Position numbers and translations under genes: made by a program
Notes under the pieces: generated by a model
Database searches by the model: none
What the model saw: the letters and a program-made list of their open reading frames with translations, nothing else
Told to the model about the DNA's origin: nothing
Shown: positions 1,168-35,339 of the stretch, in pieces
Layout of the letters: each line of letters opens with the position of its first letter
Numbering within the stretch: the stretch's first letter is position 1
Assembly: GCA_030528885.1 (NCBI GenBank)
Contig: JAUMXY010000015.1
Span: 1 to 56,673, forward strand
Direction: 5' to 3'
DNA length: 56,673 bases
Source of the DNA: Bacteroidales bacterium
Lineage (GTDB): Bacteria; Bacteroidota; Bacteroidia; Bacteroidales; Bacteroidaceae

Positions 1168-1172
1168 CGAGG

Positions 1173-1614: not shown

Positions 1615-1692
1615 AAAAAATCAGCAGGCACAACATTAAAGATTGGAATTCAAGAGTAAAGTAAAGAATCGTTATAAAAAATCCCCATCATT

Positions 1693-2763: not shown

Positions 2764-2772
2764 ACTAGGCTT

Positions 2773-3939: not shown

Positions 3940-3963
3940 TGGTTTCATAGTATCGGTAAAAAA

Positions 3964-3994
3964 CGTGTGGCTTAGGGGTTGCCTAAGCCACACG
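3964..3994. terminator. Bidirectional terminator between convergent genes
   Basis: Perfect 13-bp stem CGTGTGGCTTAGG / CCTAAGCCACACG with a 5-nt loop. It is followed by six T on the minus strand and by a weaker AT-rich stretch on the plus strand. It separates the tandem paralogues (+) from the GH31 gene (-). Confidence 0.85.
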
Positions 3995-4021
3995 ATTTGT
4001 ATAAAGGAATGAGTTGTGTCT

Positions 4022-6406: not shown

Positions 6407-6445
6407 ATTTATATAGGTTTTTGAAGTGGTTGTTTTCTTGATTGC

Positions 6446-8358: not shown

Positions 8359-8451
8359 TGCTTTCTGCGTGTACTGGGGTGCAGCAGGTTTTGGGGTGAC
8401 TAATTGAGAATTGTTGGATGTGTCTCTTTTTGTCGATAGGTTTTGATGGCA

Positions 8452-8459
8452 CAAAGGTA
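8452..8459 (-). promoter_or_regulatory. Promoter -7 box TACCTTTG for the GH26/GH31 operon
   Basis: Fits TAnnTTTG. No TTTG occurs at the expected -33 distance, which would fit activator dependence. A palindrome GTTGAATCAAC lies just upstream. Confidence 0.6.
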
Positions 8460-8490
8460 GCGTTTTTCTCGCAGCGGAGGAGACGGTGTG

Positions 8491-8544
8491 GTTGATTCAA
8501 CAGAGTAGAATTGTTGATTTTATTGAGTGGTCAGGTTGATTCAA
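8491..8544. promoter_or_regulatory. Candidate operator: two GTTGATTCAAC palindromes 43 bp apart
   Basis: The 11-bp odd palindrome occurs at 8491-8501 and again at 8534-8544, about four helical turns apart. The distal copy overlaps the last codons of the AraC-type regulator gene and the proximal copy abuts the -33 region of the GH26 operon promoter. A role as binding sites for the neighbouring regulator is inferred from position. Confidence 0.45.
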
Positions 8545-12736: not shown

Positions 12737-12783
12737 ATTGCTGTTTGATTTATGGTTGAGTATAGGCTTGCTTTTTGGGGGGA

Positions 12784-14010: not shown

Positions 14011-14035
14011 CGTAGGTGGTTAGTGATTGTTTTGT

Positions 14036-14044
14036 GCAAAGATA
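14036..14044 (-). promoter_or_regulatory. Promoter -7 box TATCTTTGC for serB
   Basis: Fits TAnnTTTGC and lies about 26 bp upstream of the serB start codon. Confidence 0.65.
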
Positions 14045-14130
14045 CGATTATGTGGAAAAAAAAGCAAATTTTAGTGCATTTTTACCTTTGTTTTGGGAAA
14101 GATTGCAGAAGTTGAATCGTTGAACATGCA

Positions 14131-14199
14131 AAGCGTACCCCTCGGGTACGATGCACCGGACCCGAGGGGTGCGGTATGCCGTACCCGAGGGGTACGCTT
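14131..14199. repeat. Intergenic triple-palindrome element (CCCGAGGGG core)
   Basis: The outer arms AAGCGTACCCCTCGGGTACG (14131-14150) and its exact reverse complement (14180-14199) are each palindromic themselves. Between them lies a third hairpin unit, GCACCggacccgaggGGTGC (14153-14172). It sits between tyrS and serB, downstream of the tyrS terminator. The layout mirrors the elements at 1400-1460 and 43026-43106, but the sequence is unrelated. The rest of 14011-14313 holds only the serB promoter and the tyrS terminator. Confidence 0.75.
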
Positions 14200-14258
14200 G
14201 AGGCGGACATGGGAAAAGGCACTTTTTTCAGGCGGGCATGCTTGTCCCTAAAAAGAAT

Positions 14259-14288
14259 GTGCTCCATCCTCGTGGCGAGGTGGAGCAC
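14259..14288 (-). terminator. tyrS terminator
   Basis: Stem GTGCTCCACCTCG / CGAGGATGGAGCAC with one bulge and a 3-nt loop, followed on the minus strand by ATTCTTTTT. It lies 26 bp after the tyrS stop. Confidence 0.8.
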
Positions 14289-14313
14289 GCATGTCTTATA
14301 GTAGGGAAAAGGC

Positions 14314-15612
14314 CTATTTTGCGATGATGAGGAAATACTTTTTCTTTCCCTGCTGAACAAGGAGGTATTTCCCGTCGAGCAAGTCGGCCTCCGTCAATAG
14401 CTGGTCAGCTTGTGTCACCTTGTCTTTGTTGACACTTACGCCGCCTCCCTTGACGAGCGTCTTTACCTCGCCCTTGCTGGGGAACACCTGTGTGTGGTCA
14501 ACCGTGAGGTCGGCGAGCTTCACGCCTTCGCCAGCGAAGAGTGACTTCTCCACCTCGAAGTGAGGCACGCCGGCAAAGACGTCGAGCAGTGTCTGCTCGT
14601 CCAGTTTCAGCAGGCTCTCCTTTGTGGACTTGCCGAAAAGGATGTTGGATGCTTCGACAGCCATGTCATAGTCTTCCTGAGAGTGAACCATGATGGTGAC
14701 CTCCTCAGCCAGCCTCTTCTGCAATACGCGGCGGCCAGGGTCAGCATCCTGCTCAGCAATGATGCTGTCAATCTCTTCCTTCTCCAGCGAGGTGAATATC
14801 TTGATGTAGCGCTTGGCGTCCTCGTCTGGCACATTGAGCCAGAACTGATAGAACTGATAAGGTGACGTGTAGTTGCGGTCGAGCCAGATGTTTCCGCTTT
14901 CTGTTTTGCCAAACTTCCTGCCGTCGCTCTTCGTCACCAGCGGACAAGTCAGCGCAAAGCACTCTCCGCCGTTCATACGGCGAATCAGCTCGGAGCCGGT
15001 CGTGATGTTGCCCCATTGGTCAGCACCGCCCAATTGCAGCTTGCAGCCCTTGTGCTCGTTCAGGTAGTAGAAGTCATAGCCTTGCAGCAGCTGGTAGGTG
15101 AACTCTGTGAAGCTCAGTCCGTCACGCGCTTCGCCGTTCAGGCGCTTCTGTACACTTTCCTTCGCCATCATGTAGTTGACAGTGATGTGCTTGCCAATGT
15201 CGCGCACAAAGTCGAGGAATCGGAAATCCTTCATCCAGTCGTAGTTGTTCACCAGCTCAGCCTTGTTCGGAGCGTCGCTGTCGAAGTCAAGGAAACGAGA
15301 GAGCTGCTCCTTGATGCAAGCGACGTTGTGTCGCAAAGTCTCCTCGTCCAGCAGATTGCGCTCTTGGCTCTTTCCTGATGGGTCGCCAATCATGCCTGTA
15401 GCGCCTCCGATGAGTGCCAAAGGCTTGTGTCCGCAGCGTTGGAAGTGACGGAGCATCATCACTCCACATAAGTGTCCGATGTGCAATGAATCTGCTGTTG
15501 GGTCAATGCCCAGATATGCTGTAACCTGCTCCTTCTTGAGCAGTTCGTCAGTGCCCGGCATCATCTGATGTATCATGCCGCGCCATGTGAGTTCCTGTAC
15601 AAAGTCCTTCAT
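14314..15612 (-). CDS. tyrS: Tyrosyl-tRNA synthetase
   Basis: 432 residues from the Met at 15612 ([20 protein letters not shown]). The frame extends upstream to 15693, but that would start inside the promoter box at 15691-15698, so the internal Met is chosen. Class I signatures are present: HIGH at residues 44-47 ([10 protein letters not shown]) and a KMSKS variant, KFGKT, in [27 protein letters not shown] and [12 protein letters not shown] form the tyrosine-binding region. A C-terminal S4-like RNA-binding domain ([17 protein letters not shown]) ends the protein. It charges tRNA-Tyr in the cytoplasm. It has its own promoter and terminator. Confidence 0.97.
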
Positions 15613-15690
15613 TTTATTGTGTGTTGTTAATCGTCCTTGGTATGTTGCCCATCGCTGGTTGTCCGTCGTGCGATGTGCATCATTGCGCCA

Positions 15691-15698
15691 CAAAGGTA
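15691..15698 (-). promoter_or_regulatory. Promoter -7 box TACCTTTG for tyrS
   Basis: Fits TAnnTTTG; implies a leader of about 70 nt before the tyrS ATG at 15612. Confidence 0.6.
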
Positions 15699-16005
15699 CG
15701 ATTTTCTTTCTGATTATTGTCTATTTAATGCTGTTTTTCTTTTTTCAGGCAGGATTTTGCCTTTCGAGTCATGGCGCAATGTTTCTTTTGCCGGTGGCAA
15801 TGGAGGTGCGAGGTGACATTCTTCATTCTTTGATTCATCATCATTTCGGGCACTGATTCAAGAAGAAGGTTGGGCTGGCGGAAAGGGTGCAGGACTCGCT
15901 CGTTTTAGGCCGTGAACTCGCGTTGTTGGAGCGGAATATGAGGTGTAAGTTACAAGAGTGATAGTTTTTGTTACAACAGTTTTATGGGAAAATGAAGAAT
16001 TTATG

Positions 16006-16014
16006 TATCTTTGC
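16006..16014 (+). promoter_or_regulatory. Promoter -7 box TATCTTTGC for GH51
   Basis: Fits TAnnTTTGC. Transcription would start near 16020, which rules out Met codons further upstream as the GH51 start and supports 16076. Confidence 0.6.
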
Positions 16015-16075
16015 ATGTCTTTTACCAAGAACTGTATCATTTATCAAATATCTTTTATCAAAAACTTATACATTT

Positions 16076-18055
16076 ATGACATTAAGAAACACGATGCAGG
16101 CGATAGCGCTTGTAGCTGCGCTGGGCACACCGATGAGCATGGCTGCTCAGAATTTGAAGGCTCCTTCAGGGGGAAAGAAAATCAGCAAGGAATTGATAGG
16201 CATCTTCTTTGAGGACATCAGCCACTCGGCAGACGGAGGTCTGTATGCGGAACTGGTGCAGAACGGCTCGTTCGAGTACTCTCCAGTAGAGCGTGATGGC
16301 TGGGGACCCGGTTCATTCTGGAGAATGATGAGACATGGACACTCAACAGGATATATAGAGGCACGTATGGATAGTCCGCTGAATGACCGTAATCCGCATT
16401 ATATGCGTATCGTGGCAGAGAGAGTAGGACGTTTCTCTGACTTTAACGGCTGGACTGGCGTAGGCATTCAGAATCAAGGTTTTGACGGCATCGCCGTGAA
16501 AGCTGGCGCAAAGTATGATTTCTCAGTGTTCATGCGCAATCAGGAAGGAAAAGCTATGCCGGTGCGCATCGTGTTGGTGGGCGACCGCAACAAGGTGCTG
16601 GCTGAGGCAGAGCTGAAGACGGACGGCACGGGCTGGAAGAAGTATGCTCAGGTGCTGACTGCTGCAGAGGACTGTGCCAATGCGCAGCTGGCAGTGCTGG
16701 CGATGGAGAAGGGTTCGCTGGATGTGGACATGGTGTCATTGATGCCACAGGATACCTATAAGGGGCATGGTCTCCGCAAGGATTTGGCTGAGACGATAGC
16801 AGCCTTAGAGCCAAAGTTTGTGCGTTTCCCTGGTGGATGCGTCGTGCATGGCGGCGGTGACGGCTTCTGGAACACTTATCGCTGGAAGAACACGATTGGT
16901 CCGAAGGAAGAGCGTGTGGCACAGAAGAACACATGGGGTTACCACCAGTCTATGGGCTTGGGCTATTTCGAGTACTTCCAGTTCTGCGAAGACCTTGGAG
17001 CTGAACCTATTCCAATCTTGCCTGTGGGCGTGAGCTGTCAGGGTGCTGGCGGCAGCTGGGGCTTGAGAGAGCAGGCGCAGATGGCTGTGCCGATGAGCGA
17101 GATGGACGAGTGGGTGGATGAGGCGCTTGACTTGATTGAGTGGGCAAATGGCGACGTGACCACCGAGTGGGGAAAGAAGCGTGCTGAGGCTGGCCATCCG
17201 GAACCTTTCAACCTGAAGTACTTGGGTCTGGGCAATGAAGAGAAGATTACTCCAGAATTTGAGGAGCGTTTCAAGTATATATATTATAAGATTCGCGAGA
17301 AGCATCCTGAAATCATCATCGTAGGAACGGCTGGACCAGGCTCTCACAAGGGCAACCCGGATTACGACACAGGTTGGAGAATTGCCGAGGACATAGATCT
17401 TGCAATCTTGGACGAGCACTATTATGAGCCAAGAGATTACTTCCTGAACAATCAGCAGAACTATGACAATTATCCTCGCAAGCGCAAGACCAAGGTGTAT
17501 CTGGGTGAGTATGCAGCGAAGGACAAGAAGATGGCTGATGCGCTGTACGAGGCACTCTACCTGCTGGGCATTGAGCGCAACGGCGATGTGGTAGTGATGA
17601 CAAGCTATGCGCCGCTGCTGGCAAAGAAGGGACAGACGAACTGGAATCCAGACTTGATTTATTTCGACAACACGAAAGTATACCCAACCTGCAGTTACTA
17701 TGTGCAGCAGATGTTTGGCACAACAGCTGGCGACTACTACTATGGCGATGTGGCTAAAGTGGAGGGCGCTGACAAGTTCCAGGGAACCTCATGCGTGCTC
17801 AACACGGAGAAGAGAGAACTGTACATCAAGGTGGTGAATGCGGCAGCGGAGGCAAAGAAGACGGCTATCAACCTGAGTCGCTTCAAGAATCTTCCTGCTA
17901 AGGCTACAATGACTACCATCAGCGGACAGCCCGACGTGGAGAACAACTACGAAGTGCAGCCTATCGCTCCTGTGACAAAGGAGGTGAACATTTCCAAGAA
18001 GATGAACATCACAGCTGAGCCTTACTCTTGCTCTGTCATCCGCATTAAGTTATAA
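16076..18055 (+). CDS. GH51 alpha-L-arabinofuranosidase
   Basis: 659 residues from the Met at 16076 (MTLRNTMQAIALVAALGTPM, a signal peptide). An earlier in-frame Met at 15968 lies upstream of the promoter box. GH51 features: an N-terminal carbohydrate-binding-like segment (~50-230), then a TIM barrel with KYLGLGNEEK (acid/base E388) and VYLGEYAA (nucleophile E478), then a C-terminal beta-sandwich. RFPGGCVVHG is typical of the family. It removes terminal arabinofuranose from arabinoxylan or arabinan. The GH8 gene follows 106 bp downstream on the same strand, so the pair probably acts on arabinoxylan oligosaccharides. The hairpin between them (around 18085-18117) has no U-run and may only modulate expression. 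Confidence 0.93.
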   Translation: MTLRNTMQAIALVAALGTPMSMAAQNLKAPSGGKKISKELIGIFFEDISHSADGGLYAELVQNGSFEYSPVERDGWGPGSFWRMMRHGHSTGYIEARMDSPLNDRNPHYMRIVAERVGRFSDFNGWTGVGIQNQGFDGIAVKAGAKYDFSVFMRNQEGKAMPVRIVLVGDRNKVLAEAELKTDGTGWKKYAQVLTAAEDCANAQLAVLAMEKGSLDVDMVSLMPQDTYKGHGLRKDLAETIAALEPKFVRFPGGCVVHGGGDGFWNTYRWKNTIGPKEERVAQKNTWGYHQSMGLGYFEYFQFCEDLGAEPIPILPVGVSCQGAGGSWGLREQAQMAVPMSEMDEWVDEALDLIEWANGDVTTEWGKKRAEAGHPEPFNLKYLGLGNEEKITPEFEERFKYIYYKIREKHPEIIIVGTAGPGSHKGNPDYDTGWRIAEDIDLAILDEHYYEPRDYFLNNQQNYDNYPRKRKTKVYLGEYAAKDKKMADALYEALYLLGIERNGDVVVMTSYAPLLAKKGQTNWNPDLIYFDNTKVYPTCSYYVQQMFGTTAGDYYYGDVAKVEGADKFQGTSCVLNTEKRELYIKVVNAAAEAKKTAINLSRFKNLPAKATMTTISGQPDVENNYEVQPIAPVTKEVNISKKMNITAEPYSCSVIRIKL

Positions 18056-18161: not shown

Positions 18162-19481
18162 ATGAAAAGATTTTGTTTAGGAGTCATTGCCATGTGCATG
18201 ACAGTGTGCCTCAGCGCACAAACTTACAAGCCTTGGGACAAAGGGGCTTTTGAGACAGGTAAGTATCGTAACCTGTTCGTGGAAATGGGCTATTCGGAGA
18301 AGGAAGTGGAGAAGAAAGTGAAGGAGGTGTTCAACGATGTGTTCCGTGGATCGAACAAGGTGTACTTCGAGGTTGGCGACACAATGGGCTATGTGTCTGA
18401 CATCAAGAACAACGACGCACGCACCGAGGGCATGTCTTATGGCATGATGATTGCAGTGCAGTTCGGCGAGAAGGACATCTTCGATCGTCTGTGGCGATGG
18501 AGCCGAAAGTACATGCAGCATCAGTCTGGACCTCGCGAAGGTTACTTCGCTTGGAGCTGCAAGGTAGATGGCACGAAGAATTCAGATGGCGCAGCCAGCG
18601 ACGGCGAGCTTTACTTCATCACAGCTCTTATTTTCGCGTCTAACCGTTGGGGCGACGATACGGGCATCAACTACAAGGCTGAAGCGCAGCGCATCCTCAA
18701 CTGCACCATGCCTCGTGAAATCGAAGGACGCCCCATGCCAGCCTTCGGACAGCAGGGACAGCAGGCGCCACAAAAGCAGCAGATGTTCTTGATTAACCCT
18801 GAAAACAAGCTGATTACGTTTACGCCCGACGGGTATGGACAGCGGTTCACTGACCCTTCTTACCATGTGCCTGCTTTCTACGAGGTGTGGGCTAAATGGG
18901 CTGATGACGGACGTGCGGACTACTGGAACGAGTGTGCGCAGAAGTCTCGCGAATACTTGCACAAGGCTATTCATGAGAAGACAGGCCTCAATGCTGACTA
19001 CAGCCAGTACGATGGCAGCCAGATGCAGAGCTTTGGCGGACGTCCAAACGGTTCCAACAATTTCCGTTATGACTCATGGCGCGTTCCTATGAACATTGCG
19101 CTCGACTACGAGTGGAGCTGTGCTGACCGCGAGTGGCAGCAGCAGTACGGAGAGAAGATTCAGAACTTCTTCTATTCTCAGGGAATCAATGACTTTGTGG
19201 ACCAGTACAGAGTGGATGGCACATTGCCAGAGGAAGGCGAAATCCTTCAGGCAGGAGGCTTCCGCAAGCTGCGTCACTCTATCGGCCTTGTGGCTACTAC
19301 CGCTGCGGCATCAATGATGTGCAGCCATGCTAAAAGCAAGGAGTTTGTCGATGCACTCTGGAACGCTAAGCATGTGCCTTTTGAAGATGGCTATTTCGAT
19401 GCCTATTACGATGGGCTTCTTCGCCTGTTCTCGTTCATGCACCTGAGCGGAAACTACAGAATTATCACTCCTGAGAAGTGA
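18162..19481 (+). CDS. GH8 exo-oligoxylanase/xylanase-type hydrolase
   Basis: 439 residues with a signal peptide (MKRFCLGVIAMCMTVCLSAQ). The (alpha/alpha)6 barrel family GH8 is shown by NNDARTEGMSYGMMIAVQ, whose E89 is the likely general acid, and by NSDGAASDGELYF (D147). Further on, NNFRYDSWRVPMNIALDYEW is also typical. Family members close to this are reducing-end xylose-releasing exo-oligoxylanases, which fits the GH51 neighbour; endo-activity cannot be excluded. An unusual Q/P-rich segment (MPAFGQQGQQAPQKQQ, ~193-208) looks like a loop insertion. The gene ends at a large palindromic terminator. Confidence 0.9.
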   Translation: MKRFCLGVIAMCMTVCLSAQTYKPWDKGAFETGKYRNLFVEMGYSEKEVEKKVKEVFNDVFRGSNKVYFEVGDTMGYVSDIKNNDARTEGMSYGMMIAVQFGEKDIFDRLWRWSRKYMQHQSGPREGYFAWSCKVDGTKNSDGAASDGELYFITALIFASNRWGDDTGINYKAEAQRILNCTMPREIEGRPMPAFGQQGQQAPQKQQMFLINPENKLITFTPDGYGQRFTDPSYHVPAFYEVWAKWADDGRADYWNECAQKSREYLHKAIHEKTGLNADYSQYDGSQMQSFGGRPNGSNNFRYDSWRVPMNIALDYEWSCADREWQQQYGEKIQNFFYSQGINDFVDQYRVDGTLPEEGEILQAGGFRKLRHSIGLVATTAAASMMCSHAKSKEFVDALWNAKHVPFEDGYFDAYYDGLLRLFSFMHLSGNYRIITPEK

Positions 19482-25618: not shown

Positions 25619-27082
25619 TCAACGTTCCACAAACAGGTCTTCCAATGTAATTGATTGGTTGACGATACTGGCATGTTCACCCTTTGCAATTCCTGTCGTC
25701 GTAACCATAACCAGTTGAATGCTATGTGTCTTGTTGTGCATCTTGCTTGCGACAAAGGCTTCTATCTTGTTCAGGAAATTCTCTTCATCATTTTTCGTTA
25801 TGGCATATTTAGTTCCAGTAAATTTCATTTCACACAGATAGTCTGTTCTGTCAGCCTTGCTTTCTAAGAGCAAGTCTATCTGTGCCCCTCGTCCGTTAGA
25901 ACTCTTCCCGCTCCAGCAATAATTACGGTCGATGGAGGCTATACGCAGCGAATCCTGAATCTGAGGTAGATGCTCTATGCAAAGCAGTTCAAAGGTGTCT
26001 CCTGCCCATGTGTAGAAGGTGGGAGTTCCATGAATGGAGTTCCATAATCCTTTCTTGGCCTGTTGTCCCTGTATGAAACGCAGATAGAACAAAGAGAAGA
26101 AATCTATCAGTTGATAAACGGTCTCCACACGTTCTTTGCCATAGCGTGGATAAGTCCTGATAATGCCAGACTCAATGAGGTTCTCAAGCAACTTGGTCAG
26201 GGTTCCTCCACTTTTGACATCTATGGCAGCACCAATCTCTTTCTGAGTCATTCCGTAGAATTGGTTTCCCAAGACTTTTACTATGTCCACATACCGTTCT
26301 TTGCTGGCATAAAGTCCAGCGTACACATCGATAAACTCTTGATGTATTTTCTCGTCAGCGAAGAAAATGCGGTCAATGTTTTCCGTAATAGTCTGACTGT
26401 TACGCAACTTGTCGAGATAAAAGGGAACACCTCCTAATGCCATGTAGCAGATGCACATCTCATATGGGGACAGACGGAACCCGTTTCGCCTGTAATACTT
26501 TTGGCATTCTGCCAATGTAAAGGGGGTAAGCTTGATAGTCTCAGTGAGTCGTCCATGCAGGCCTCCGTAATCACGTATCACATTGTCAAGCATCCAACTC
26601 GTTGCCGAGCCGCACACCACCAGTACTATATTCCTTTGTCCGTCTGCCCAAGAGTTCCAAAAATAGCCGAGTTCCGAAATCATCTCTGATGACTGTGGAC
26701 CCGCCAGCCAAGGAAGTTCGTCTATGAGAATAACCTTTCGACGAGAACGCATGCTTTCAAGCAGCTTGCGCAGAAGCAGAAAGGCTTCACGCCAACAAGA
26801 TGGCTTTCTTGAAGTAGCGGCGTCAAGACCAGAAAACAGCAAAGAATCATAGAAATGATCCAGCTGCAACTTTCGGTAGGTTTCGTAATTCTTATCTCCG
26901 TCCTTTACGTATGTGCCAACGGCAGAAAAGGCAATCTTGTTGCCATACACTTCGCTGACCAGATACGACTTGCCTATGCGTCTGCGTCCATAAATGGCCA
27001 CAAACTCTGATTTCTTCGATTTGTACAGACGTTCAAGTGTCTCGATTTCAGCTCGTCTGCCAATAATATTCGGATACTTCAT
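25619..27082 (-). CDS. ATPase_2/DUF234-type ATPase with C-terminal PD-(D/E)XK-like nuclease domain
   Basis: 487 residues. Walker A is YGRRRIGKSY (~31-40), Walker B KVILIDELPWLAG, and LVVCGSATSWM the sensor-like segment. This is the archaeal-type ATPase family (pfam ATPase_2/AAA_14). A winged-helix-like part (~275-330, MTQKEIGAAIDVKSGGTLTKLLENL) precedes a C-terminal domain in which GAQIDLLLES and LCEMKF supply the D...ExK pattern of PD-(D/E)XK nucleases (DUF234-like). The family is common in Bacteroidota, often in variable loci, with unknown role. The gene lies alone between two direct copies of a 77-bp repeat, which may have brought it in or could delete it. Confidence 0.85.
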   Translation of the reverse strand: MKYPNIIGRRAEIETLERLYKSKKSEFVAIYGRRRIGKSYLVSEVYGNKIAFSAVGTYVKDGDKNYETYRKLQLDHFYDSLLFSGLDAATSRKPSCWREAFLLLRKLLESMRSRRKVILIDELPWLAGPQSSEMISELGYFWNSWADGQRNIVLVVCGSATSWMLDNVIRDYGGLHGRLTETIKLTPFTLAECQKYYRRNGFRLSPYEMCICYMALGGVPFYLDKLRNSQTITENIDRIFFADEKIHQEFIDVYAGLYASKERYVDIVKVLGNQFYGMTQKEIGAAIDVKSGGTLTKLLENLIESGIIRTYPRYGKERVETVYQLIDFFSLFYLRFIQGQQAKKGLWNSIHGTPTFYTWAGDTFELLCIEHLPQIQDSLRIASIDRNYCWSGKSSNGRGAQIDLLLESKADRTDYLCEMKFTGTKYAITKNDEENFLNKIEAFVASKMHNKTHSIQLVMVTTTGIAKGEHASIVNQSITLEDLFVER

Positions 27083-27167
27083 CTTTTTATGTTTCTAATG
27101 CGCTTCAAAATTACAACTTTTATTTTAAAACCAAAATTCCTTGCTTAAAAATCAGCGAAAAAGGGAA

Positions 27168-27290
27168 TTATTTCTCTGTTTTCGCTGATTTTTGAAAAGC
27201 ATGTAATTGTTTAATGTAGGAATGATAATCTTCGACGTCTGTCTCGTCTATCGTGATGTAACCCTTGATTGTGTGTTCCTCTTTTGTGGA
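27168..27290 (-). pseudogene. Possible 3' remnant of a coding sequence
   Basis: The last ~40 codons of an open minus-strand frame read like a protein end (IKGYITIDETDVEDYHSYIK, then QLHAFQKS and a basic finish) and stop inside the hairpin at 27147-27193. Upstream of about 27290 the frame loses protein character and enters the 77-bp repeat. This fits a gene whose 5' part was lost next to the repeat. I do not recognise the family, and chance coding cannot be excluded. Confidence 0.25.
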
Positions 27291-27357
27291 AAATCTACCA
27301 ACACTGACAGGACATAGCACATATATAATAGCCATAGCACAGGATGCATAGGATAAA

Positions 27358-27434
27358 TGCAGCCACTTGCCCGGCCCTCCTCGAAAAGAAAAGAGGCACA
27401 AGGTGAAAATGCCCTGTGCCTCCATGCTGAAGTG
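27358..27434 (-). repeat. 77-bp dispersed repeat with terminator hairpin, copy 2
   Basis: Second copy of the element at 25446-25522, direct orientation, about 96% identical. On the minus strand it lies 39 bp after the 60-residue peptide gene and its hairpin with T-rich tail could terminate the LRR-dockerin operon. Confidence 0.8.
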
Positions 27435-27472
27435 TCAGTGTCTGACAAGTGTCGTGAGCGTTTGGAAAGGCT

Positions 27473-27655
27473 TTACCACAGCCCTTCCAACGCTTCCTCA
27501 AAGTCGCGCCGTATGTTAGCGGCAGGCTCATGGCTGCCATCAGTCACACCGCCATAGCCAACGTCTACAGATCTGCTGCTGATACTGCCGCACAGAGGAA
27601 GTTCCTCCTCCATCATCTCTATCTCCATAAGAGGAGCAACATATTCTCTTTTCAT
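27473..27655 (-). CDS. 60-residue peptide of a Bacteroidales small-protein type
   Basis: Begins MKREYVAPLMEIEMMEEELP and ends in an acidic helix-like stretch with a terminal Trp. Small Bacteroidales peptides with an MKKxYIxPxxEV start and a Cys/Gly-Ser middle (LCGSISS here) are common and usually annotated as hypothetical. It lies 35 bp after the cohesin-like protein gene on the same strand and ends before the repeat terminator, so it is probably the last gene of the LRR-dockerin operon. Function is unknown; no signal peptide is visible. Conservation of the start motif and position supports it as a real gene rather than a chance ORF. Confidence 0.65.
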   Translation of the reverse strand: MKREYVAPLMEIEMMEEELPLCGSISSRSVDVGYGGVTDGSHEPAANIRRDFEEALEGLW

Positions 27656-27690
27656 TTTTTATGTTTTTTATTTGTTAAAATTACCAATTC

Positions 27691-28920
27691 TTATTTCACT
27701 ACAATCTTCTGACCGTTCTTGATATAGATGCCGGCAGGAAGCGTCTCCATGTCGACATCGTAGCCTATCTTCTGACCGTTCAATCTGTAAACTGCACCCG
27801 TCTCGTCGGCTACGGAAGGGAAACCCTCGATGGAAGTCACTTCGCTGTCAACCACGAAACGAACATTGGCCTCCTTGGCGTCGCCTTCAACTTCTGTCAA
27901 AACTGTATAGAAGACGAAATAGGCACGATAGGCTTTCATTTTGGGCAGCCCATTGGAATAGTAAAATTTATTTCCATTGAGAAAAAGAGCTAATTCAGGA
28001 ACTTCTGTATTTGCCTTATATGTTCCAATGAAGCTGTTGTATAATCTGATGGGTCCCATCTTAATTCCATCTTTGTTAATAGCAGGTTCTTCTTCTGGCT
28101 CGATGTCCACCCCATCCACCGTAAACTCACTGATTGCTGAACTAACCTTGATGAGATAAGGATGGTTTGCCTCAATAGCACTTGCATCATTAAAGTTTAC
28201 TGTTAGACCCACGATGTTTTCATCTTGATCCTCTTCTGTTTCAACCCCTGTAAAGTCAGCTAGTTGTACATCCTCGCCGAATGCGCTCTTCACCTGCTCT
28301 GCGGTCATAGCGAACGGCAGCACCAGCGTGCTCCACTCGTTCGCCTTGATAGTGCGATTCACACGCACGTTCACACCTTCGGCAGCCTCGGGCATGGTTG
28401 TTGAGAGCTCGTCAAGCAGAACGCGGTTCTCTGCAATCTCGATGTCGAAAGTGGCATTGTCAAACAAGATTGCCTCGGATGAAGTGGTGGTGAATTCAAT
28501 CTCGCTCAGCGCCGCAGTCAGCTCTGTTCCGATAGCCAGCTCTGCATCCGCCTTCACATACACTTTCAGTAAGGTTCCACTTGTGTCGGCAAAAGGAAGT
28601 TTCAAATTTGAATAGCAAATGAACTTGGCAGCCCGCTCTGTTTGCATCGCTGAGCTTACCGTGAAGCTTTCGTCGTTCATGCGGCCGGTCTTGGCTGATG
28701 TTGGAATGCCTTTGTCGTTCAGCACGAAGCTCAGCCCTTCGGGAAGGGTGAGAGTGATATCGAAAGCGGTTAGTTCATAGTCATCGTTGACCAGTTCGAT
28801 GTCTATGGTGCCGATGCCGCCTTGGGGGATGTAGGTTTTCCCGACCTTGACGCCATTCTCGGCATGCACCGGCAAGAAGCTTGCCAGCAGCGCAAAAAGG
28901 ATGAAAATGTTTTTCTTCAT
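27691..28920 (-). CDS. Secreted protein with N-terminal cohesin-like domain and C-terminal tail
   Basis: 409 residues with a signal peptide (MKKNIFILFALLASFLPVHA). Residues ~24-165 have the cohesin-type beta-sandwich pattern: VGKTYIPQGGIGTIDIELVN, then AFDITLTLPEGLSF, then FADTSGTLLKVYVKADAEL, then SEIEFTTTSSEAILFDNATF. A second beta-rich domain follows (~180-370, TIKANEWSTLVLPFAMTAEQ and onward) of a kind common in Prevotella surface proteins. The tail is VYRLNGQKIGYDVDMETLPA then GIYIKNGQKIVVK. It lies 46 bp after the LRR-dockerin gene in the same operon. The cohesin call is by pattern only. Cohesins bind dockerins in cellulosome-type assemblies, which makes the neighbour relevant. Confidence 0.78.
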   Translation of the reverse strand: MKKNIFILFALLASFLPVHAENGVKVGKTYIPQGGIGTIDIELVNDDYELTAFDITLTLPEGLSFVLNDKGIPTSAKTGRMNDESFTVSSAMQTERAAKFICYSNLKLPFADTSGTLLKVYVKADAELAIGTELTAALSEIEFTTTSSEAILFDNATFDIEIAENRVLLDELSTTMPEAAEGVNVRVNRTIKANEWSTLVLPFAMTAEQVKSAFGEDVQLADFTGVETEEDQDENIVGLTVNFNDASAIEANHPYLIKVSSAISEFTVDGVDIEPEEEPAINKDGIKMGPIRLYNSFIGTYKANTEVPELALFLNGNKFYYSNGLPKMKAYRAYFVFYTVLTEVEGDAKEANVRFVVDSEVTSIEGFPSVADETGAVYRLNGQKIGYDVDMETLPAGIYIKNGQKIVVK

Positions 28921-28966
28921 AAGATATATTTTTAAAAGTTATTTAATACGAATGATGGACAGTGGC

Positions 28967-31900
28967 TCATTGTGGGTCAAGCATCTCAACCATGCTTTTT
29001 CTGCTCTTGGCCGGCGCATTGCCTTCCAGCAGGATGTCGATAACAGCAACGGCATCGGTAATCGTTATGTCGCCGCTGCCATTCACGTCGGCTGCCACGC
29101 TGACGAAATCGATAGGAGTGCTTCCTAAGAGGTGGCTCACAATGGCAACAGCGTCAGTGATGGAGATTCTTCCGTCACCATTCGTGTCGGCTACCTTTAC
29201 GCCGCTCACTTTGAGCGTAGCATTCGCGTTGTAAGGACGAATGGCTTTCACGTCTTCAGTGGTCAGCTCGATGTTCTTGATGGTAACAGAATGATGGTCA
29301 GCTGCCATTTCTTGGCTGGTCTCTACAACAAGGTTGAGCAGCGCGCCTTCTGTGCCGCTGAAAACAGACTTGGTATTTGAAAGCACAGTAATCAGATAAT
29401 TTCCGCTTGCCAGTTGCTTGAAGGATACGGCATGGTCCTCTCCCTTGCGTTCTGTCAGCTGGCACTCAGACAAGGTGGCGTTCTCGGGAAGAGCGACCTC
29501 AAGCTGCAGGGCAGTGATAGGTTTGTTGTTGTGCATGTTGACAGGGACGGTGATGCTCTTTCCGCGGATGACCTCAGCGTCGCTAATCTCCAGGTAGTTG
29601 TCTTTTCCCGGGTTGTATGGCGCTTCGACAATGCCGCCTTTGAATATCTCTTCCGTCCAGCCTGCGGCAATGTAGGCGTCACGCGTTCCGTAGGGGACGG
29701 TCAATTGGCAAGCGTCTGCAAGTCCAGAGAATACGTTAGAAGGGGTAGTATAGGATGAAGCATCATAAGCACTATAATGAGAAATAGTGGTGGGGTCTTC
29801 AATTTCAGAAATTATTGACGTCAACTGATTGCAATTAGCGAAGGCATTCCCCGAAATGTTTTTTATATTATTAGGGAGGGTGATGGAGGTCAGGCCAGTA
29901 CAATCTCTGAAGGCATCGTTCCCTATGCTCTCCACACTGTTGGGGATAATGATAGAGGTCAGACCAGTACAGCCAGAGAAGGCGGACGATGCGATTCCCT
30001 TCGTCCCTTCTTTGATGGTTATATCCGTGTCTTCTGGCATATTCCCTTTATAAAGAACAACTCGGCCGATGTAAACCAATCCATCTTCTTGGCTGTTAAG
30101 TAAATCGACACCATAAAATGCATAGTCTCCAATTTCTGTCACGCTGTTGGGGATGGAGAGGGACGTCAGGTTGTAACAATAATTGAATGCATATCCACCA
30201 ATCCATGTCACGCTGTTTGGGATGGTTGCAGAGGTCAGTCCTCTACATCCCTCAAAAGCGCCGCTCTCAATGCGCGTCACTCCGTTGGGGATATCGATAG
30301 AGGTCAGACCATCGCACCAGATGAATGCATGAGGCCCAATAGCGGTCACACCGCTGGGAATCGTTGTGTTTTTGCATCCTGCAATCAGCTTCCCGCTTTC
30401 GGTATGGATAAGCGCATTGCAATTATCTCGTGAATCATAAATAGGGTTGTCTGCGTCAACTTTGATTGAAGTTAGGCTGGAGCAGTTATAGAATGCCTCA
30501 TTGCCGATGCTTGTCACGCCTTCTGGAATGTTGATGGAAGTAAGGCTGGAGCAGTACGAGAAAGCATTATCGCCAATGCTTGTTACGTCCTCTGGTATGT
30601 TGATGGAGGTCAGTGAAGAGCAGTTCCAGAAAGCATTATCGCCAATGCTTGTCACGCTTGAAGGTATGCTGACGGATGTCAGGGAGGAACAGCCTGAGAA
30701 TGCTCCATTGCCTATGTTTGTCACGCCTTCTGATATGTTGACGGATGTCAGGGAGGTGCAGTTTGTGAAAGCTCTATTGCCGATGTTTGTCACGCTGTTG
30801 GGGATGGAGAGGGAAGTCAGGTTGTCACAGCCAGTGAAAGCATATTCGTCAATGCTTGTCACGCCCTCTGGTATGTTGACGGATGTCAGTGAAGAGCAGT
30901 TCACGAAAGCGCAACTGCCTATGCTTGTCACACTTGAAGGTATGCTGACGGAGGTCAGTGAAGAGCAACTCCTGAAAGCGTCACCGCCTATGCTTGTCAC
31001 GCCCTCTGGTATGTTGATGGAAGTCAGTGAAGAGTAGCCCCGGAAAGCACCAAAGCCTATGCTTGTCACCGTATTGGGAATGGCCGTATTCTTGCATCCT
31101 GTAATCAGTTCTCCGCTTTCGGTATGGATAAGTGCATTGCAATTGTCTCGTGAATCATAAATAGGATTGTCCGCGTCAACTTTGATAGAAGTCAGGGATT
31201 CGCAGTAAGAAAAAGCATAATAGCTAATGCTTGTCACGCTTGAAGGTATGTTGACAGATGCCAGGGAAGAGCAGTTCATGAAAGCACCAAAGCCTATGCT
31301 TGTCACGCCCTCTGGTATGTTGACGGATGTCAGGGAGGTGCAGCCATTGAAAGCATATTCGCCAATGCTTGTCACGCCCTCCGGTATGTTGACGGATGTC
31401 AGTGAAGAGCACTGAGAGAAAACACTATCGCCAATGTTTGTCACGTTTGAGGGTATGTTGATAGAAGTCAGGTTGGAACAGCCTTTGAATGCTGATTCGT
31501 CTATATATGTCACGCCCTCGGGGATAACGACAGTATTTAAAGAAGTACAGCCTTTGAAAGTTCTTTCGCCTATATATGACAAATTCTCAGAAAGGGTCAC
31601 AGAAGTCAGTCCAGTACAATTTAGAAACACATTTCCCTGCATTTCTGTCACGCTATTCGGTATCGTGACAGAAGTCAGTCCGGTACATCCAGAGAAAATA
31701 CCGCCTTCAATGGATGTTACACTGTTGGGTATCGTGATAGAAGTCAAGCCGGAGTGAGCGAAAGCACCGCCTCCAATGCTTGTTACGCTGTTGGGTATCG
31801 TGATAGAAGTCAATTCGGAACAGCTCCAGAAAGAACCGTCTCCAATGCTTGTTACAGTATTGGGTATCGTGACAGAGGTTAATTCGGAACAGCTCCAGAA

Positions 31901-32134
31901 AGTACCGTTTCCAATGCTCGTTACGGTATACTGTACACCTTCCTTCATGAAAGAAGACGGAATCACGATGTCGCCAGAATAGTAGTAGCCCTCTGGATAC
32001 GTCACTTCCACGTCTTTGTGCGTGTCGTCGGTCGTTGCGATGACGTTGTAGTGCAAACCTTCATGCTCGATTTCGTACGCAAAAGCCATGCTGTTCAGCC
32101 ATAGGGCGAACAAAAAGAATAAGGTTTTCTTCAT
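28967..32134 (-). CDS. BspA-type LRR surface protein with cohesin-like module and C-terminal dockerin
   Basis: 1055 residues with a signal peptide (MKKTLFFLFALWLNSMAFA). About 30 LRR_5/BspA repeats of 23 residues (SLTSVNIPEGVTSIGxxAF) fill ~70-830. Two long inserts that share IKVDADNPIYDSRDNCNALI lie 241 residues apart, showing an internal duplication. Residues ~840-965 read as a cohesin-like beta-sandwich (LEISDAEVIRGKSITVPVNM, ITALQLEVALPENATLSE). The C-terminus (~983-1040) has two calcium-loop repeats, DTNGDGRISITDAVAIVSHL and DVNGSGDITITDAVAVIDIL, the signature of a type I dockerin. It is expressed from a distant promoter (32482-32490) through a ~340-nt leader and is followed by the cohesin-like gene. 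It may be a surface adhesin or scaffold component. It lacks the YDLTG-type tail of its neighbours. Confidence 0.9.
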   Translation of the reverse strand: MKKTLFFLFALWLNSMAFAYEIEHEGLHYNVIATTDDTHKDVEVTYPEGYYYSGDIVIPSSFMKEGVQYTVTSIGNGTFWSCSELTSVTIPNTVTSIGDGSFWSCSELTSITIPNSVTSIGGGAFAHSGLTSITIPNSVTSIEGGIFSGCTGLTSVTIPNSVTEMQGNVFLNCTGLTSVTLSENLSYIGERTFKGCTSLNTVVIPEGVTYIDESAFKGCSNLTSINIPSNVTNIGDSVFSQCSSLTSVNIPEGVTSIGEYAFNGCTSLTSVNIPEGVTSIGFGAFMNCSSLASVNIPSSVTSISYYAFSYCESLTSIKVDADNPIYDSRDNCNALIHTESGELITGCKNTAIPNTVTSIGFGAFRGYSSLTSINIPEGVTSIGGDAFRSCSSLTSVSIPSSVTSIGSCAFVNCSSLTSVNIPEGVTSIDEYAFTGCDNLTSLSIPNSVTNIGNRAFTNCTSLTSVNISEGVTNIGNGAFSGCSSLTSVSIPSSVTSIGDNAFWNCSSLTSINIPEDVTSIGDNAFSYCSSLTSINIPEGVTSIGNEAFYNCSSLTSIKVDADNPIYDSRDNCNALIHTESGKLIAGCKNTTIPSGVTAIGPHAFIWCDGLTSIDIPNGVTRIESGAFEGCRGLTSATIPNSVTWIGGYAFNYCYNLTSLSIPNSVTEIGDYAFYGVDLLNSQEDGLVYIGRVVLYKGNMPEDTDITIKEGTKGIASSAFSGCTGLTSIIIPNSVESIGNDAFRDCTGLTSITLPNNIKNISGNAFANCNQLTSIISEIEDPTTISHYSAYDASSYTTPSNVFSGLADACQLTVPYGTRDAYIAAGWTEEIFKGGIVEAPYNPGKDNYLEISDAEVIRGKSITVPVNMHNNKPITALQLEVALPENATLSECQLTERKGEDHAVSFKQLASGNYLITVLSNTKSVFSGTEGALLNLVVETSQEMAADHHSVTIKNIELTTEDVKAIRPYNANATLKVSGVKVADTNGDGRISITDAVAIVSHLLGSTPIDFVSVAADVNGSGDITITDAVAVIDILLEGNAPAKSRKSMVEMLDPQ

Positions 32135-32475
32135 AGTTTTTCATAAGACCCCTGGAGTTCCGACAAAGGTGCTATAGATTGGTTAATTAAACACAAGAAG
32201 CGTGGAACTGTATGTCCGCATCTTCAAGGTGAGGGTCGTCAGAATTACCCGAATAGCAAAGATGGTTTTTTGAGCAGTTCCACGCAACAACGCGTGAAGC
32301 CGCTATGTCCTCTTCTGCTATTCGAGTATGGCTGTGGCACGCGAGCCTCCTCAAAAATTTTGCAATGATTGAAAGTTTCTGACGTTTTCACCTTGCAAGA
32401 AAGAGCATAACGCTTCTGTTTGTCGATAAGGCACAGCGCCGAAACGCTGCACGGGAGCACATACGGGATGCGCTC
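32135..32475 (-). promoter_or_regulatory. Long structured 5' leader of the LRR-dockerin operon
   Basis: The promoter at 32482-32514 implies a ~340-nt leader. It contains a perfect 11-bp inverted repeat GCGTGGAACTG (32285-32275) / CAGTTCCACGC (32210-32200) with nested stems CATCTT/AAGATG and GGGT/ACCC. It also has TGCTATTCG and CGAATAGCA segments (around 32318-32326 and 32251-32259) that could pair with each other instead. A further hairpin ATACGG/CCGTAT sits near the 5' end. No terminator with U-run was found. The minus-strand ORF at 32245-32658 crosses the promoter and is not credible. Confidence 0.5.
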
Positions 32476-32481
32476 CGTATG

Positions 32482-32490
32482 GCAAAGGTA
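32482..32490 (-). promoter_or_regulatory. Promoter TTTG-N20-TACCTTTGC for the LRR-dockerin operon
   Basis: -7 box TACCTTTGC, with TTTG at 32511-32514 twenty bases upstream: a good match to the Bacteroidota consensus. It lies ~350 bp from the start codon at 32134. Confidence 0.7.
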
Positions 32491-32686
32491 GCTTAAATCT
32501 TTTAATCCGCCAAACTTTTCTGTGATTTTTTTATCTGGCGTTTCTCTTTCGTTTGGTTTGCCGCACTGGTGTTGGTCGGGACATTCGTGCCTTCTCGTGT
32601 GCATAAAAAGCCTCCTTTTTCTATGTTTATAGATAGAATGTGGTCGGTTTGGGGGCAAATCTTTTTGTTGAATGATATTTTTCTCT

Positions 32687-32695
32687 TAACTTTGC
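32687..32695 (+). promoter_or_regulatory. Promoter TTTG-N19-TAACTTTGC for the metalloprotease-SusCD operon
   Basis: TTTG at 32664-32667, 19-bp spacer, TAACTTTGC at 32687-32695; 22 bp before the ATG at 32718. One of the best promoter matches in the window. Confidence 0.75.
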
Positions 32696-32717
32696 AAATT
32701 AAAAGGTTAACTAAGAT

Positions 32718-35339
32718 ATGTCGCTGAATAGAAAAACGCTAGTAATATGCTTGATGTCAGCTTTCCTGTCGGGTACGGGCGAGTTGATGGCGATGGCAGA
32801 ATCGAATGCTGAAGCAAGTGCAGAGCTGTTCTTGAAAAAGAAAGACAGCAAGGAAAGTACGAAGGACTCCAAGAAGTCTAAGAAATCTAAGAAGTCAAAG
32901 GGAGAAGAGGCTCCGCCGCCTTCTGCTTACAAGCTGATGACGGGCAGAGACTCTGTGGCGATGTCGGGCGTGATGAATGTCGTGCAGAAAGGGGATACCG
33001 TTTATCTTGAACTGCCGGTTGACTTGCTGGGCAAGCCTTTCCTCGTGTCGAACAAGTTGCAGCAGGTTCCTGCCGAACTGAACGAGGCAAGCGCGAATAA
33101 GGGCATCAATTATGCCAATCAGATGGTGCGTTTTGAGTGGGACAAGGATGCCAAGCTGGTCAAGATGCGCCAGCAGCGTGTCACTCCCGAAGCTCCAGAG
33201 GGCTCTTATCTGGCTCGTTCTGTGGCTGACAACTACATCGATCCGCTGATTGCGTCGATGAAGGTGGAAGCGGTTTCTCCAGACTCCTCAACCGTCATCT
33301 TTAAGGTAAACGATTTCTTCAACGGAAAGAAGAATGTGCTGAATGATGTGTTTAACGACATCAACATCGGCACATCTCCTGTCAGCGAACTCTCTCGCAT
33401 TGTCAGCGTGAAGGCATACGAGCAGAGTGTTGTGGCAAAGTCGGAGTTGACGACTACGGTCAGAGAGGGCTTGTCTAAGGTCAATGTGACAGTGGTGGTG
33501 AGCACGGCTATCTGCCTGCTGCCCGAGGAGCCGATGGCACGCCGCCGAGAGGATTGGCGCGTTGGCTATTTCTCTACGCCTGCAACTATCTACAATGACC
33601 ACCAGCAGAAGGTGGAGCATACCAACTACGTGACACGTTGGCGCTTGGAGCCAAGCGATCCGGAGGCGTATATGCGTGGAGAGCTGACAGAGCCTGTCAA
33701 GCCCATCACGTTCTACATCGGCGGCGCTGTTCCTCAGCATCTTCGTCCTTATATCACAAAGGGAATCCTTGACTGGAACAAGGCTTTTGAGCATGCAGGA
33801 TTCAAGAATGCTGTCAAGGTGGTGGTGCCGGATGACACAACAGACGTGGAAGGGGATGACATGAGGTATTCTGTGCTCACCTACGCAGCATCGGAGAAAG
33901 CGAATGCCATGGGGCCTTCCACGATAGACCCTCGTACAGGTGAGATTCTGGAGGCTGACATTATCTGGTGGCATAACGTGCAGTCTCTCATCAGCGAGTG
34001 GATTGTCGTGCAGACAGGAGCGGTGGATTCGCGCGCTCGTTCGCTCGAACTTCCTATAGAGCTCATTGGTGATGCTGTTCGCTTTGTGGCTTGCCATGAG
34101 GCGGGACATTCATTGGGCCTTCGTCACAACATGATAGCTTCGGCTGCCTATCCGACTGACTCTTTGCGCTCGGCTACATTTACATCGCGCATGGGCGGAA
34201 CATCGGCGAGCATCATGGATTATGCGCGATTCAACTATGTGGCTCAGCCTGGCGATGAGGTGAAAGTGATGTCTCCTAATATTGGCCCGTACGACTTCAT
34301 GGCTATAGAATGGGGCTATCGCTGGTATCCTGCTGGCACAAACGAAGACAAGGTGCTGACCGATTTGCTGGCAAAGTATCAGGGTAAGGAATACCGATAC
34401 AGCGAGACGCAGCCACAGCGTTCAGCCGTTGACCCTCGTGCGCTGAGCGAAGACTTGGGCGATGACCCCGTTAAGTCTGCACGTTTGGGCATCGAGAACC
34501 TTAAGCGCGTCATGCCGAATCTGGTTGACTGGACGCGTAACAATAAAGCAGGGCAGAACTACGATGAGGCTGGCGGACTTTATTCGGCTGTCATCTTCCA
34601 GTGGACTCTTTACCTGTATCATGTGATGGCAAACGTGGGAGGCATCTATATGGATCGCCCAACAGTGGAGTGGGCTAATTTCCCGCGTCGAGATGCTTAT
34701 ACCTTCGTGGAGAAAGAGCGCCAGAGAGAGGCGGTGCAGTTCTTGATAGATGAAGTTCTCTGCTTCCCTGAATGGCTCTTTGGCTCTCCGCTTTCAACAC
34801 AGATATACCCGCTCAGGAAAACTCCGCTGGGCACGACCGAGCAGGAGCCTGCCATGCTGTTGAAGAACCAGCAAAACTACATCCTTTGGGATTTGTTGGC
34901 AAATGACCGATTGGTCAGAATGTACGAAAACGAATGGGTGAACGGAGAGGATGCCTATACTGCGGTTGAGTTGCTGCAAACTCTGCATGAGGCAATCTTC
35001 CGCAAGACCATTGCGGGACAGAAGCTGAATGTGATGGAGCGCAGTTTGCAGAAGAGCTTTGTGGATGCACTCATCACTGCTGCTGCCGAAAGCGAAGGGG
35101 TGAAGATAAACAAGAGCCTTGCTGACGACAGGCAGGTCGGCACCAGTGCGCCACGCACCATTGACATGACTATGACGCAGATTACACGTACCAGCGACGC
35201 GCTTAGCGTCAAGCGTGCAGAAATGCTGAGAATCATGAAGCTGCTGAAGAGTCGCGCCAATAGCGGAGATTTAAGTACACAAATGCATTATGAGGATGTT
35301 GTGCTGCGCATACAGACAGCCCTCGGCTTGCAGAAATAA
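32718..35339 (+). CDS. DUF5117/DUF5118-type zinc metalloprotease
   Basis: 873 residues. A signal-like N-terminus (ICLMSAFLSGTGELMAMA) is followed by a lysine/serine-rich linker (~40-65, KDSKESTKDSKKSKKSKKSK), then N-terminal DUF5118/DUF5117-type domains (~70-400). The zinc site HEAGHSLGLRH matches HExxHxxGxxH (H460, H464, H470) with the Met-turn ASIMDYARFNYV downstream, as in metzincins. The C-terminal part (~560-870) is helical. The family is widespread in Bacteroidota and secreted; substrates are not known. It is the first gene of an operon: SusC follows after 26 bp, so it may mature or recycle surface proteins of this uptake system. Confidence 0.9.
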   Translation: MSLNRKTLVICLMSAFLSGTGELMAMAESNAEASAELFLKKKDSKESTKDSKKSKKSKKSKGEEAPPPSAYKLMTGRDSVAMSGVMNVVQKGDTVYLELPVDLLGKPFLVSNKLQQVPAELNEASANKGINYANQMVRFEWDKDAKLVKMRQQRVTPEAPEGSYLARSVADNYIDPLIASMKVEAVSPDSSTVIFKVNDFFNGKKNVLNDVFNDINIGTSPVSELSRIVSVKAYEQSVVAKSELTTTVREGLSKVNVTVVVSTAICLLPEEPMARRREDWRVGYFSTPATIYNDHQQKVEHTNYVTRWRLEPSDPEAYMRGELTEPVKPITFYIGGAVPQHLRPYITKGILDWNKAFEHAGFKNAVKVVVPDDTTDVEGDDMRYSVLTYAASEKANAMGPSTIDPRTGEILEADIIWWHNVQSLISEWIVVQTGAVDSRARSLELPIELIGDAVRFVACHEAGHSLGLRHNMIASAAYPTDSLRSATFTSRMGGTSASIMDYARFNYVAQPGDEVKVMSPNIGPYDFMAIEWGYRWYPAGTNEDKVLTDLLAKYQGKEYRYSETQPQRSAVDPRALSEDLGDDPVKSARLGIENLKRVMPNLVDWTRNNKAGQNYDEAGGLYSAVIFQWTLYLYHVMANVGGIYMDRPTVEWANFPRRDAYTFVEKERQREAVQFLIDEVLCFPEWLFGSPLSTQIYPLRKTPLGTTEQEPAMLLKNQQNYILWDLLANDRLVRMYENEWVNGEDAYTAVELLQTLHEAIFRKTIAGQKLNVMERSLQKSFVDALITAAAESEGVKINKSLADDRQVGTSAPRTIDMTMTQITRTSDALSVKRAEMLRIMKLLKSRANSGDLSTQMHYEDVVLRIQTALGLQK

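Follow-up and report, generated by a model that had tools for sequence, protein, structure and literature searches.

A recurrent gene pair of a dockerin-bearing leucine-rich repeat protein and a one-cohesin partner in Bacteroidota, and its possible role in surface display

The window analysed here, 56,673 nucleotides from a Bacteroidales bacterium (GenBank assembly GCA_030528885.1, contig JAUMXY010000015.1, positions 1 to 56,673), carries on its minus strand two genes separated by 46 bp. Gene 1 encodes a BspA-type leucine-rich repeat (LRR) protein of 1055 residues that ends in a cohesin-like domain and a dockerin, and gene 2 a partner of 409 residues that opens with a second cohesin-like domain (Table 1). 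Both open reading frames named in an earlier, sequence-only reading of this DNA are present. The two genes belong to a recurrent cohesin–dockerin arrangement with mainly adhesin-like cargo. Judging from sequence comparisons, we consider it likely that the pair is a surface-display unit, in which the partner would act as a one-cohesin anchor and the LRR adhesin would dock on it through calcium-dependent dockerin–cohesin binding.

The type I dockerin proposed earlier for the C-terminus of gene 1 is confirmed by the curated Pfam family. PF00404 gives 35.1 bits with the full protein (cut-off 22.9; residues 982–1035, E = 1.5e-8) and the score rises to 44.2 bits on the segment comprising the cohesin-like domain and the dockerin alone. 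The module contains two F-hand calcium-type loops, DTNGDGRISITD and DVNGSGDITITD, with aspartate at positions 1 and 12, and a chance motif is ruled out by the PF00404 score. The repeats ahead of it are of the BspA type (LRR_5, PF13306, E = 2.1e-215). Both gene products begin with a signal-peptide-like stretch, that of gene 1 being read by eye, and the gene 1 product carries its cohesin and dockerin at the C-terminus without a secretion tail of its own. C-termini of the form (D/E/N)P(Q/E/M/N), often LDPQ, occur shortly past the dockerin in 30 of the 65 upstream dockerin proteins of relatives (loci L070–L149).

The two sandwich domains escape the curated cohesin family, since PF00963 at E<=1 matches neither residues 844–978 of gene 1 nor residues 20–164 of the partner. 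The paralogous domain on another contig of the same genome (C7) reaches 22.6 bits (cut-off 24.1). Profiles built from relatives find solved cohesins. A profile made from relatives (A4) matches 5n5p_A with E = 5.5e-7, the N-terminal region of a profile of the partner family (A5) matches 2zf9_A with a best E of 0.0013 and a profile of 129 diverse domains (A6) matches 5n5p_A with E = 2.6e-11, a level at which the sandwich family is homologous to solved cohesins. The 30 top PDB rows of A6 (E<=0.019) comprise 21 with a cohesin or scaffoldin/scaffolding protein label and nine more, labelled anchoring protein (three), NagJ (four) and 'Endoglucanase' (two), that we take to be cohesin modules too. The first clearly different row, at E = 0.029, is a designed immunoglobulin (Ig) protein. 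PF00963 itself (E<=1) matches 20 of 48 relatives of the cohesin–dockerin segment and 16 of 65 members of the partner family, the window partner not being among them. In addition, residues 20–164 of the partner retrieve the sandwich ahead of the C7 dockerin (E = 9.5e-4, 24% identity). These comparisons indicate that the sandwiches of gene 1 and of the partner are related to each other and to cohesins. A generic Ig or BACON fold was considered and is not supported, as it heads no PDB listing and is absent from the Pfam matches of the window partner; because the best PDB rows are cohesins and no Ig or BACON family leads, the match is not to generic folds only. The sequence-only reading, which had placed one cohesin-like sandwich before the dockerin and another at the start of the next gene, is thus borne out by profile searches of both families: the dockerin exceeds the PF00404 cut-off and the sandwiches are seen by the profiles of relatives, though PF00963 misses both.

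The partner possesses a single cohesin-like domain, the maximum per protein in its genome being two, followed by a conserved C-terminal region (PCT) that finishes in a secretion-type tail. The tail pattern is present in all 65 partners of relatives; it occurs in seven of their 65 upstream dockerin proteins, where by eye a real tail is seen in one (L132) only. The tail of A5 matches the tails of 4kca and 7jvi. PF18962 and TIGR04183 each give weak matches in three of the 65 relatives, the window partner not among them. A search covering SprA finds SprA_N on contig C65 of the source genome with E = 3.2e-214, so a type IX translocon component is encoded there. We propose that the partner would be exported and kept at the cell surface, probably via the type IX system, that the gene 1 dockerin would bind the partner cohesin with calcium, and that the LRR adhesin, lacking its own tail, would in this way be retained on the cell by the partner. 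For the cohesin of gene 1 itself there are two possibilities: it may take up the dockerin of another copy, so that chains grow, or lie against the dockerin of its own molecule.

To examine how general the pairing is, 80 partner loci from other genomes were fetched by the partner family alone. They were the 80 top-ranking of 217 relatives, which biases the set towards full-length partners; many of the records are titled as rumen or other ruminant-gut samples. A dockerin lies just upstream of the partner, or is fused to it, in 73 of the 80. The dockerin gene is immediately upstream in 65 loci, with the dockerin C-terminal in 64 of these and a gap of 10–61 bp to the partner in 52. Four further loci encode cohesin, dockerin, cohesin and PCT fused in one frame. 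There were at first 11 exceptions, and a six-frame recheck added a dockerin in four of them (L081, L094, L118 and, with one frame between, L130). The partner's one cohesin is the reason that we favour a one-to-one surface anchor over a multi-arm scaffold. In this respect the earlier proposal of a parts list for a cell-surface scaffold survives in part: the modules are real, occur together and co-vary, and the multi-arm scaffold is not supported.

A similar association is seen within the genus. Of 37 same-genus genomes, our own included, 29 have a cohesin-like domain by the new profile (E<=0.001) and 30 have dockerins; both are present in 28, neither in six, a dockerin only in two and a cohesin-like domain only in one (Fisher p = 8e-5). 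PF00963 exceeds its cut-off in 11 of the 37 (15 at E<=0.001). These counts suggest that Bacteroidota do have cohesins, most of which PF00963 fails to detect. With four genomes set aside (G004, G015, G034 and G035), a cohesin-like domain lies within 6 kb, the same protein included, for 46 of 51 listed dockerins; four dockerin rows with in-frame stops were left out of this proximity count. The four genomes have 16–34 dockerin matches and few detectable cohesin-like domains (2–8). Either their cohesins are too diverged for detection or the dockerins have another partner, and dispersed dockerins without a cohesin-like domain nearby imply that a second use of dockerins exists. A pattern scan of viral contigs gave 35 matches, none of them encoding a relative.

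The dockerin and the partner cohesin vary together although they are encoded by separate genes. For 47 loci, left from 67 pairs after dropping 19 that lack an own cohesin and one near-duplicate, the distances between dockerins follow those between partner cohesins (r = 0.776) and those between the own cohesins of the dockerin proteins (r = 0.711), neither value being reached in 1000 permutations. The corresponding values are -0.036 for dockerin and PCT (629 of 1000 permutations) and 0.073 for partner cohesin and PCT (163 of 1000), though the last two share one gene; PCT distances do hold some signal, with split halves giving r = 0.41. Over all 65 non-redundant loci the correlation of dockerin and partner cohesin is 0.703 (Spearman 0.578). 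When neighbours are ranked by partner cohesin, the locus with the closest dockerin is among the top three in 45 of 65 cases, compared with seven by PCT and eight by the partner signal peptide, where chance gives three.

The own cohesin raises the question of an internal clasp. It ends about two residues ahead of the dockerin (residue 978 versus 980), and the two might pack on each other within the molecule as companions, so that the dockerin would serve mainly internally and the partner would be a separate, merely co-expressed protein. The correlation of own cohesin and dockerin fits this arrangement, and it retains a value of 0.409 given PCT and partner cohesin. The dockerin, however, varies more closely with the partner cohesin, where the correlation given PCT and own cohesin is 0.584. 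Moreover, an own cohesin is not found by profile in 16 of the 65 upstream dockerin proteins, which shows that it is not required everywhere, and these proteins still adjoin a cohesin partner; in the four fused loci the two proteins are one. We consider the clasp unlikely. A recent origin of the own cohesin as a copy of the partner cohesin was tried as an explanation and is not general: mean identity is 0.276 in matching and 0.207 in non-matching loci, and the matching partner ranks first for the own cohesin in eight of 46 loci. The two are 59–68% identical in L104, L128, L133, L141 and L149.

Another account would attribute the pairing and co-variation solely to shared inheritance of a conserved operon, with the sandwiches as spacers that do not bind dockerins. 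The coding regions of the dockerin and the partner cohesin are physically adjacent, and shared inheritance of the locus could for that reason give part of the co-variation. Inheritance of the operon as a block is difficult to reconcile with the lack of correlation between partner cohesin and PCT within one gene when dockerin and cohesin correlate across the gene boundary. The correlation also persists (r = 0.489) among diverged pairs with a cohesin distance over 0.7, which make up 1820 of 2080 pairs. As for spacers, the best PDB rows of the profile are labelled as, or taken to be, cohesin modules. On balance we regard this account as improbable.

The two repeats of the dockerin provide a further indication. 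In 57 of the 65 dockerins compared, agreement at positions 10, 11, 13, 14, 17 and 18 is 0.68–0.81 within a dockerin and 0.22–0.34 between dockerins, with 0 of 500 shuffles reaching it at each position. Such agreement at recognition positions would be anticipated if the two repeats offered equivalent faces for binding. In a single genome (records CAMVIM) the loci include members of four cohesin clusters and show four distinct dockerin recognition strings.

Several observations weigh against the one-cohesin anchor that we favour. Firstly, both window sandwiches fall short of a curated PF00963 score, and the families for C-terminal domains of the type IX secretion system (T9SS) give no match in the window partner. 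Secondly, the pairing has gaps: six of the 80 partner loci have no upstream dockerin (L106, L127, L136, L140, L144 and L147), one (L123) is not checkable since its upstream DNA is absent, and in G004, G015, G034 and G035 a cohesin-like domain is near only four of 56 listed dockerins. Thirdly, the signature of specificity is imperfect. The intervening signal peptide of 20 residues correlates weakly with both dockerin and partner cohesin (r about 0.25), and how well dockerin clusters match cohesin clusters changes with the threshold chosen (adjusted Rand 0.06 to 0.82). Symmetry between the dockerin repeats beats all shuffles at positions 7, 9, 15, 20 and 21 as well, and since it extends beyond the recognition positions, part of it may come from duplication of repeats or conversion between them. 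Thirteen cohesin columns mapped from the 5n5p interface, for which the contacts were taken from PMC5934362, show no clear excess of coupling to the recognition positions of the dockerin over the remaining columns (p = 0.063 for the partner and 0.31 for the own cohesin); like the weak signal of the signal peptide, this is in keeping with shared inheritance.

A broader view can be put forward only tentatively, and we hold it to be less probable than not. Gut Bacteroidota might possess a great number of overlooked cohesin–dockerin plugs, mutually specific and used in place of the secretion tail, with several classes per cell. Each cargo protein would finish with its dockerin, and the tail would be borne by a one-cohesin partner dedicated to it. 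Since the own cohesin of the cargo varies with the same dockerin, cargo copies may chain head to tail, perhaps forming an adhesive fibre capped and anchored by the partner.

The cargo was surveyed in 66 (48578 residues) of the 85 dockerin proteins of loci L070–L149, and the counts given here come from the 25 commonest of the 54 families matched. LRR_5, the BspA-type repeat, is the commonest family (26 proteins) and Big_2 occurs in 17. Enzyme-type matches are to CotH kinase (three), subtilase (two) and alpha-amylase (two), so the cargo is not always non-catalytic, and further enzymes may be present given the coverage of the families. The suggestion that adhesins take the place of enzymes consequently holds for the source genome, where no PF00404 dockerin is on a recognised enzyme, and requires correction for these relatives.

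These results bear on a further alternative, a conventional cellulosome in which the LRR proteins would be accessories to an enzyme complex. LRR-dockerin proteins belong to Ruminococcus cellulosomes in the available parts of PMC2930009 and PMC7480376, and genes for glycoside hydrolases of families GH31 and GH8 and for an arabinofuranosidase are on the window contig. The source genome, which is 89% complete, offers, as far as PF00404 and the cohesin-like profile detect, neither dockerin-bearing glycoside hydrolases nor a multi-cohesin scaffoldin. PF00404 detects three dockerin proteins in it, all in loci with cohesin-like domains, and the seven own-genome matches of the cohesin-like profile (E<=0.1) all fall in these three loci, from which the profile was seeded; none gives a protein with more than two such domains. 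On the window contig PF00404 has no second site beyond gene 1, in agreement with the earlier statement that no hydrolase of the window carries a dockerin. No recognised hydrolase domain was found on the three dockerin proteins, that on C7 being cut by the contig end and 2096 of 2401 residues of the frame on a further contig, C73, being scanned. Proteins with five to eight cohesin-like domains were, among the loci examined, confined to one genome of another family (G039). A conventional cellulosome therefore appears very improbable to us.

The other two loci of the source genome differ from each other. Contig C7 carries a copy of the same gene pair, its dockerin protein being the truncated one. 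The locus on C73 (L006) is a third system, with an Ala/Glu/Lys-rich protein of more than 2000 residues in which a dockerin is followed by a cohesin-like domain. This dockerin scores 21.8 bits against PF00404 in the protein scan (cut-off 22.9) and 26.6 bits in the genome search. The gene after it encodes 1360 residues, begins with two cohesin-like domains and carries CBM_4_9.

G039 belongs to the same order and to a different family, and it encodes proteins with eight, five and seven cohesin-like domains (loci L050, at 5477–12874 and 13022–16738; L051, at 3–10934; L052; and L152–L159). Ten of its dockerin proteins were scanned, among them four C25-family peptidases, one M14 peptidase and one LRR protein, and in two of the ten the dockerin is followed by a secretion tail (PF18962). 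This set looks like a cellulosome-like system built around peptidases.

Known systems share some features with the pair and differ from it in others. The NagJ-type cohesin (2jh2, 2ozn) is non-cellulosomal, and the profile links it to the present domains (E = 7.5e-5 for 2jh2). NagJ-type clostridial glycosidases carry the cohesin and dockerin on secreted enzymes, not on an adhesin and its anchor. BspA-type surface proteins of Bacteroidota share LRR_5 with the window protein and with 26 of the 66 scanned dockerin proteins; gene 1 adds a C-terminal cohesin and dockerin and has no tail. The cellulosome of Ruminococcus flavefaciens, as described in parts of PMC2930009 and PMC5934362, is alike in its dockerins with two calcium loops, its cohesins (5n5p is the best solved match) and its LRR-dockerin proteins, and the named relatives of the window partner come partly from ruminant guts. 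It differs in having enzymes and multi-cohesin scaffoldins, in place of a one-cohesin, tailed partner beside the dockerin gene. Its ScaA dockerin has a single binding mode (PMC5934362, in part), whereas the dockerin repeats here are largely symmetric. In Ruminococcus albus a single cohesin has been suggested to tether separate dockerin proteins to the surface (PMC6118326, in the part available); there one anchor serves many enzymes, while here each locus has its anchor gene and the cargo is mostly non-catalytic. ANME archaea have extracellular cohesin and dockerin proteins outside cellulose degradation with binding partners unknown, according to part of PMC9012536; these are archaeal and partly linked to the S-layer, and that part describes no dedicated adjacent anchor gene.

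Surveys of rumen Bacteroidota report dockerins with few or no cohesins, a gap that hidden cohesins would fill; our reading of hidden cohesins follows from the genus counts, in which PF00963 passes in far fewer genomes than the new profile or the dockerins. According to the available part of Table 1 in PMC6071333, two Bacteroidetes bins (49 and 58) each hold 11 dockerins and no cohesin, bin 136 holds five dockerins and one cohesin and bin 129 no dockerin and two cohesins; the same source, in part, states that certain Bacteroidetes have cohesins. Elsewhere cohesins were detected only in Firmicutes_A bins (PMC9177762, in part), and one Bacteroidetes genome without cohesins or dockerins is said to resemble others (PMC5831590, in part). 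Among the open-licence papers listed (titles and abstract openings, at most 30 per search), no description of a paired cohesin–dockerin adhesin and anchor system was found, nor a joint treatment of dockerin, leucine-rich repeat and BspA. A survey of non-cellulosomal modules by Peer et al. in 2009 may mention Bacteroidota cohesins. If binding is confirmed, the pair would answer what many Bacteroidota dockerins hold on to, and would represent a new way of hanging cargo on the outer surface together with a large natural collection of paired specificities.

The layout of the locus suggests that gene 1 and gene 2 form one operon (Table 1). We base this on gene order and the short gap, because pattern scans for promoters and terminators add little: nine promoter-like matches were found in the region against a shuffle mean of 7.2, no excess, and one terminator-like site in 27000–33000 against a shuffle mean of 5.7, a count that is itself no evidence.

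Table 1. Coordinates of the two genes and their features in the window
Feature	Position	Strand	Evidence
Gene 1: 1055-residue BspA-type LRR protein, C-terminal cohesin-like domain and dockerin	28967..32134	-	Open reading frame; PF13306; PF00404
Signal-peptide-like stretch of gene 1, residues 1–19	32078..32134	-	By eye from sequence
LRR region of gene 1, about residues 84–767	29834..31885	-	PF13306, 7 stretches; motif scan
Cohesin-like domain of gene 1, residues 844–978, just ahead of dockerin	29201..29605	-	Own profile 123 bits; A6 refinds at 29186–29605
Type I dockerin of gene 1, residues 980–1042, two calcium-type loops	29009..29197	-	PF00404; extent by own profile
LDPQ tetrapeptide, C-terminal end of gene 1 product	28970..28981	-	Sequence
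Intergenic gap, 46 bp	28921..28966	-	Open reading frame ends; no terminator-like sites; one overlapping promoter-like match, 28980–28952
Gene 2: 409-residue partner, cohesin-like domain, conserved C-terminal region, secretion-type tail	27691..28920	-	Open reading frame; 65-row family A5
Cohesin-like domain of partner, residues 20–164	28429..28863	-	Own profile 106 bits; A5 matches solved cohesins
PCT, C-terminal region of partner, residues 166–409	27694..28425	-	No Pfam families matched
Secretion-type (T9SS-like) tail of partner, YRLNGQ...GIYIKNGQKIVVK	27694..27789	-	Pattern; A5 matches 4kca tail
Terminator-like hairpin, 12 pairs, T-rich, 3' of gene 2	27392..27423	-	Pattern scan

Elsewhere in the window a further BspA-type LRR gene, truncated where the contig ends, lies at 3–749 on the minus strand. 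A GH31 gene (4022–6406, minus strand), a gene for a laminin-G/ricin-type lectin protein (9929–12736, minus strand), an alpha-L-arabinofuranosidase gene (15968–18055, plus strand) and a GH8 gene (18162–19481, plus strand) together point to the use of plant polysaccharides.

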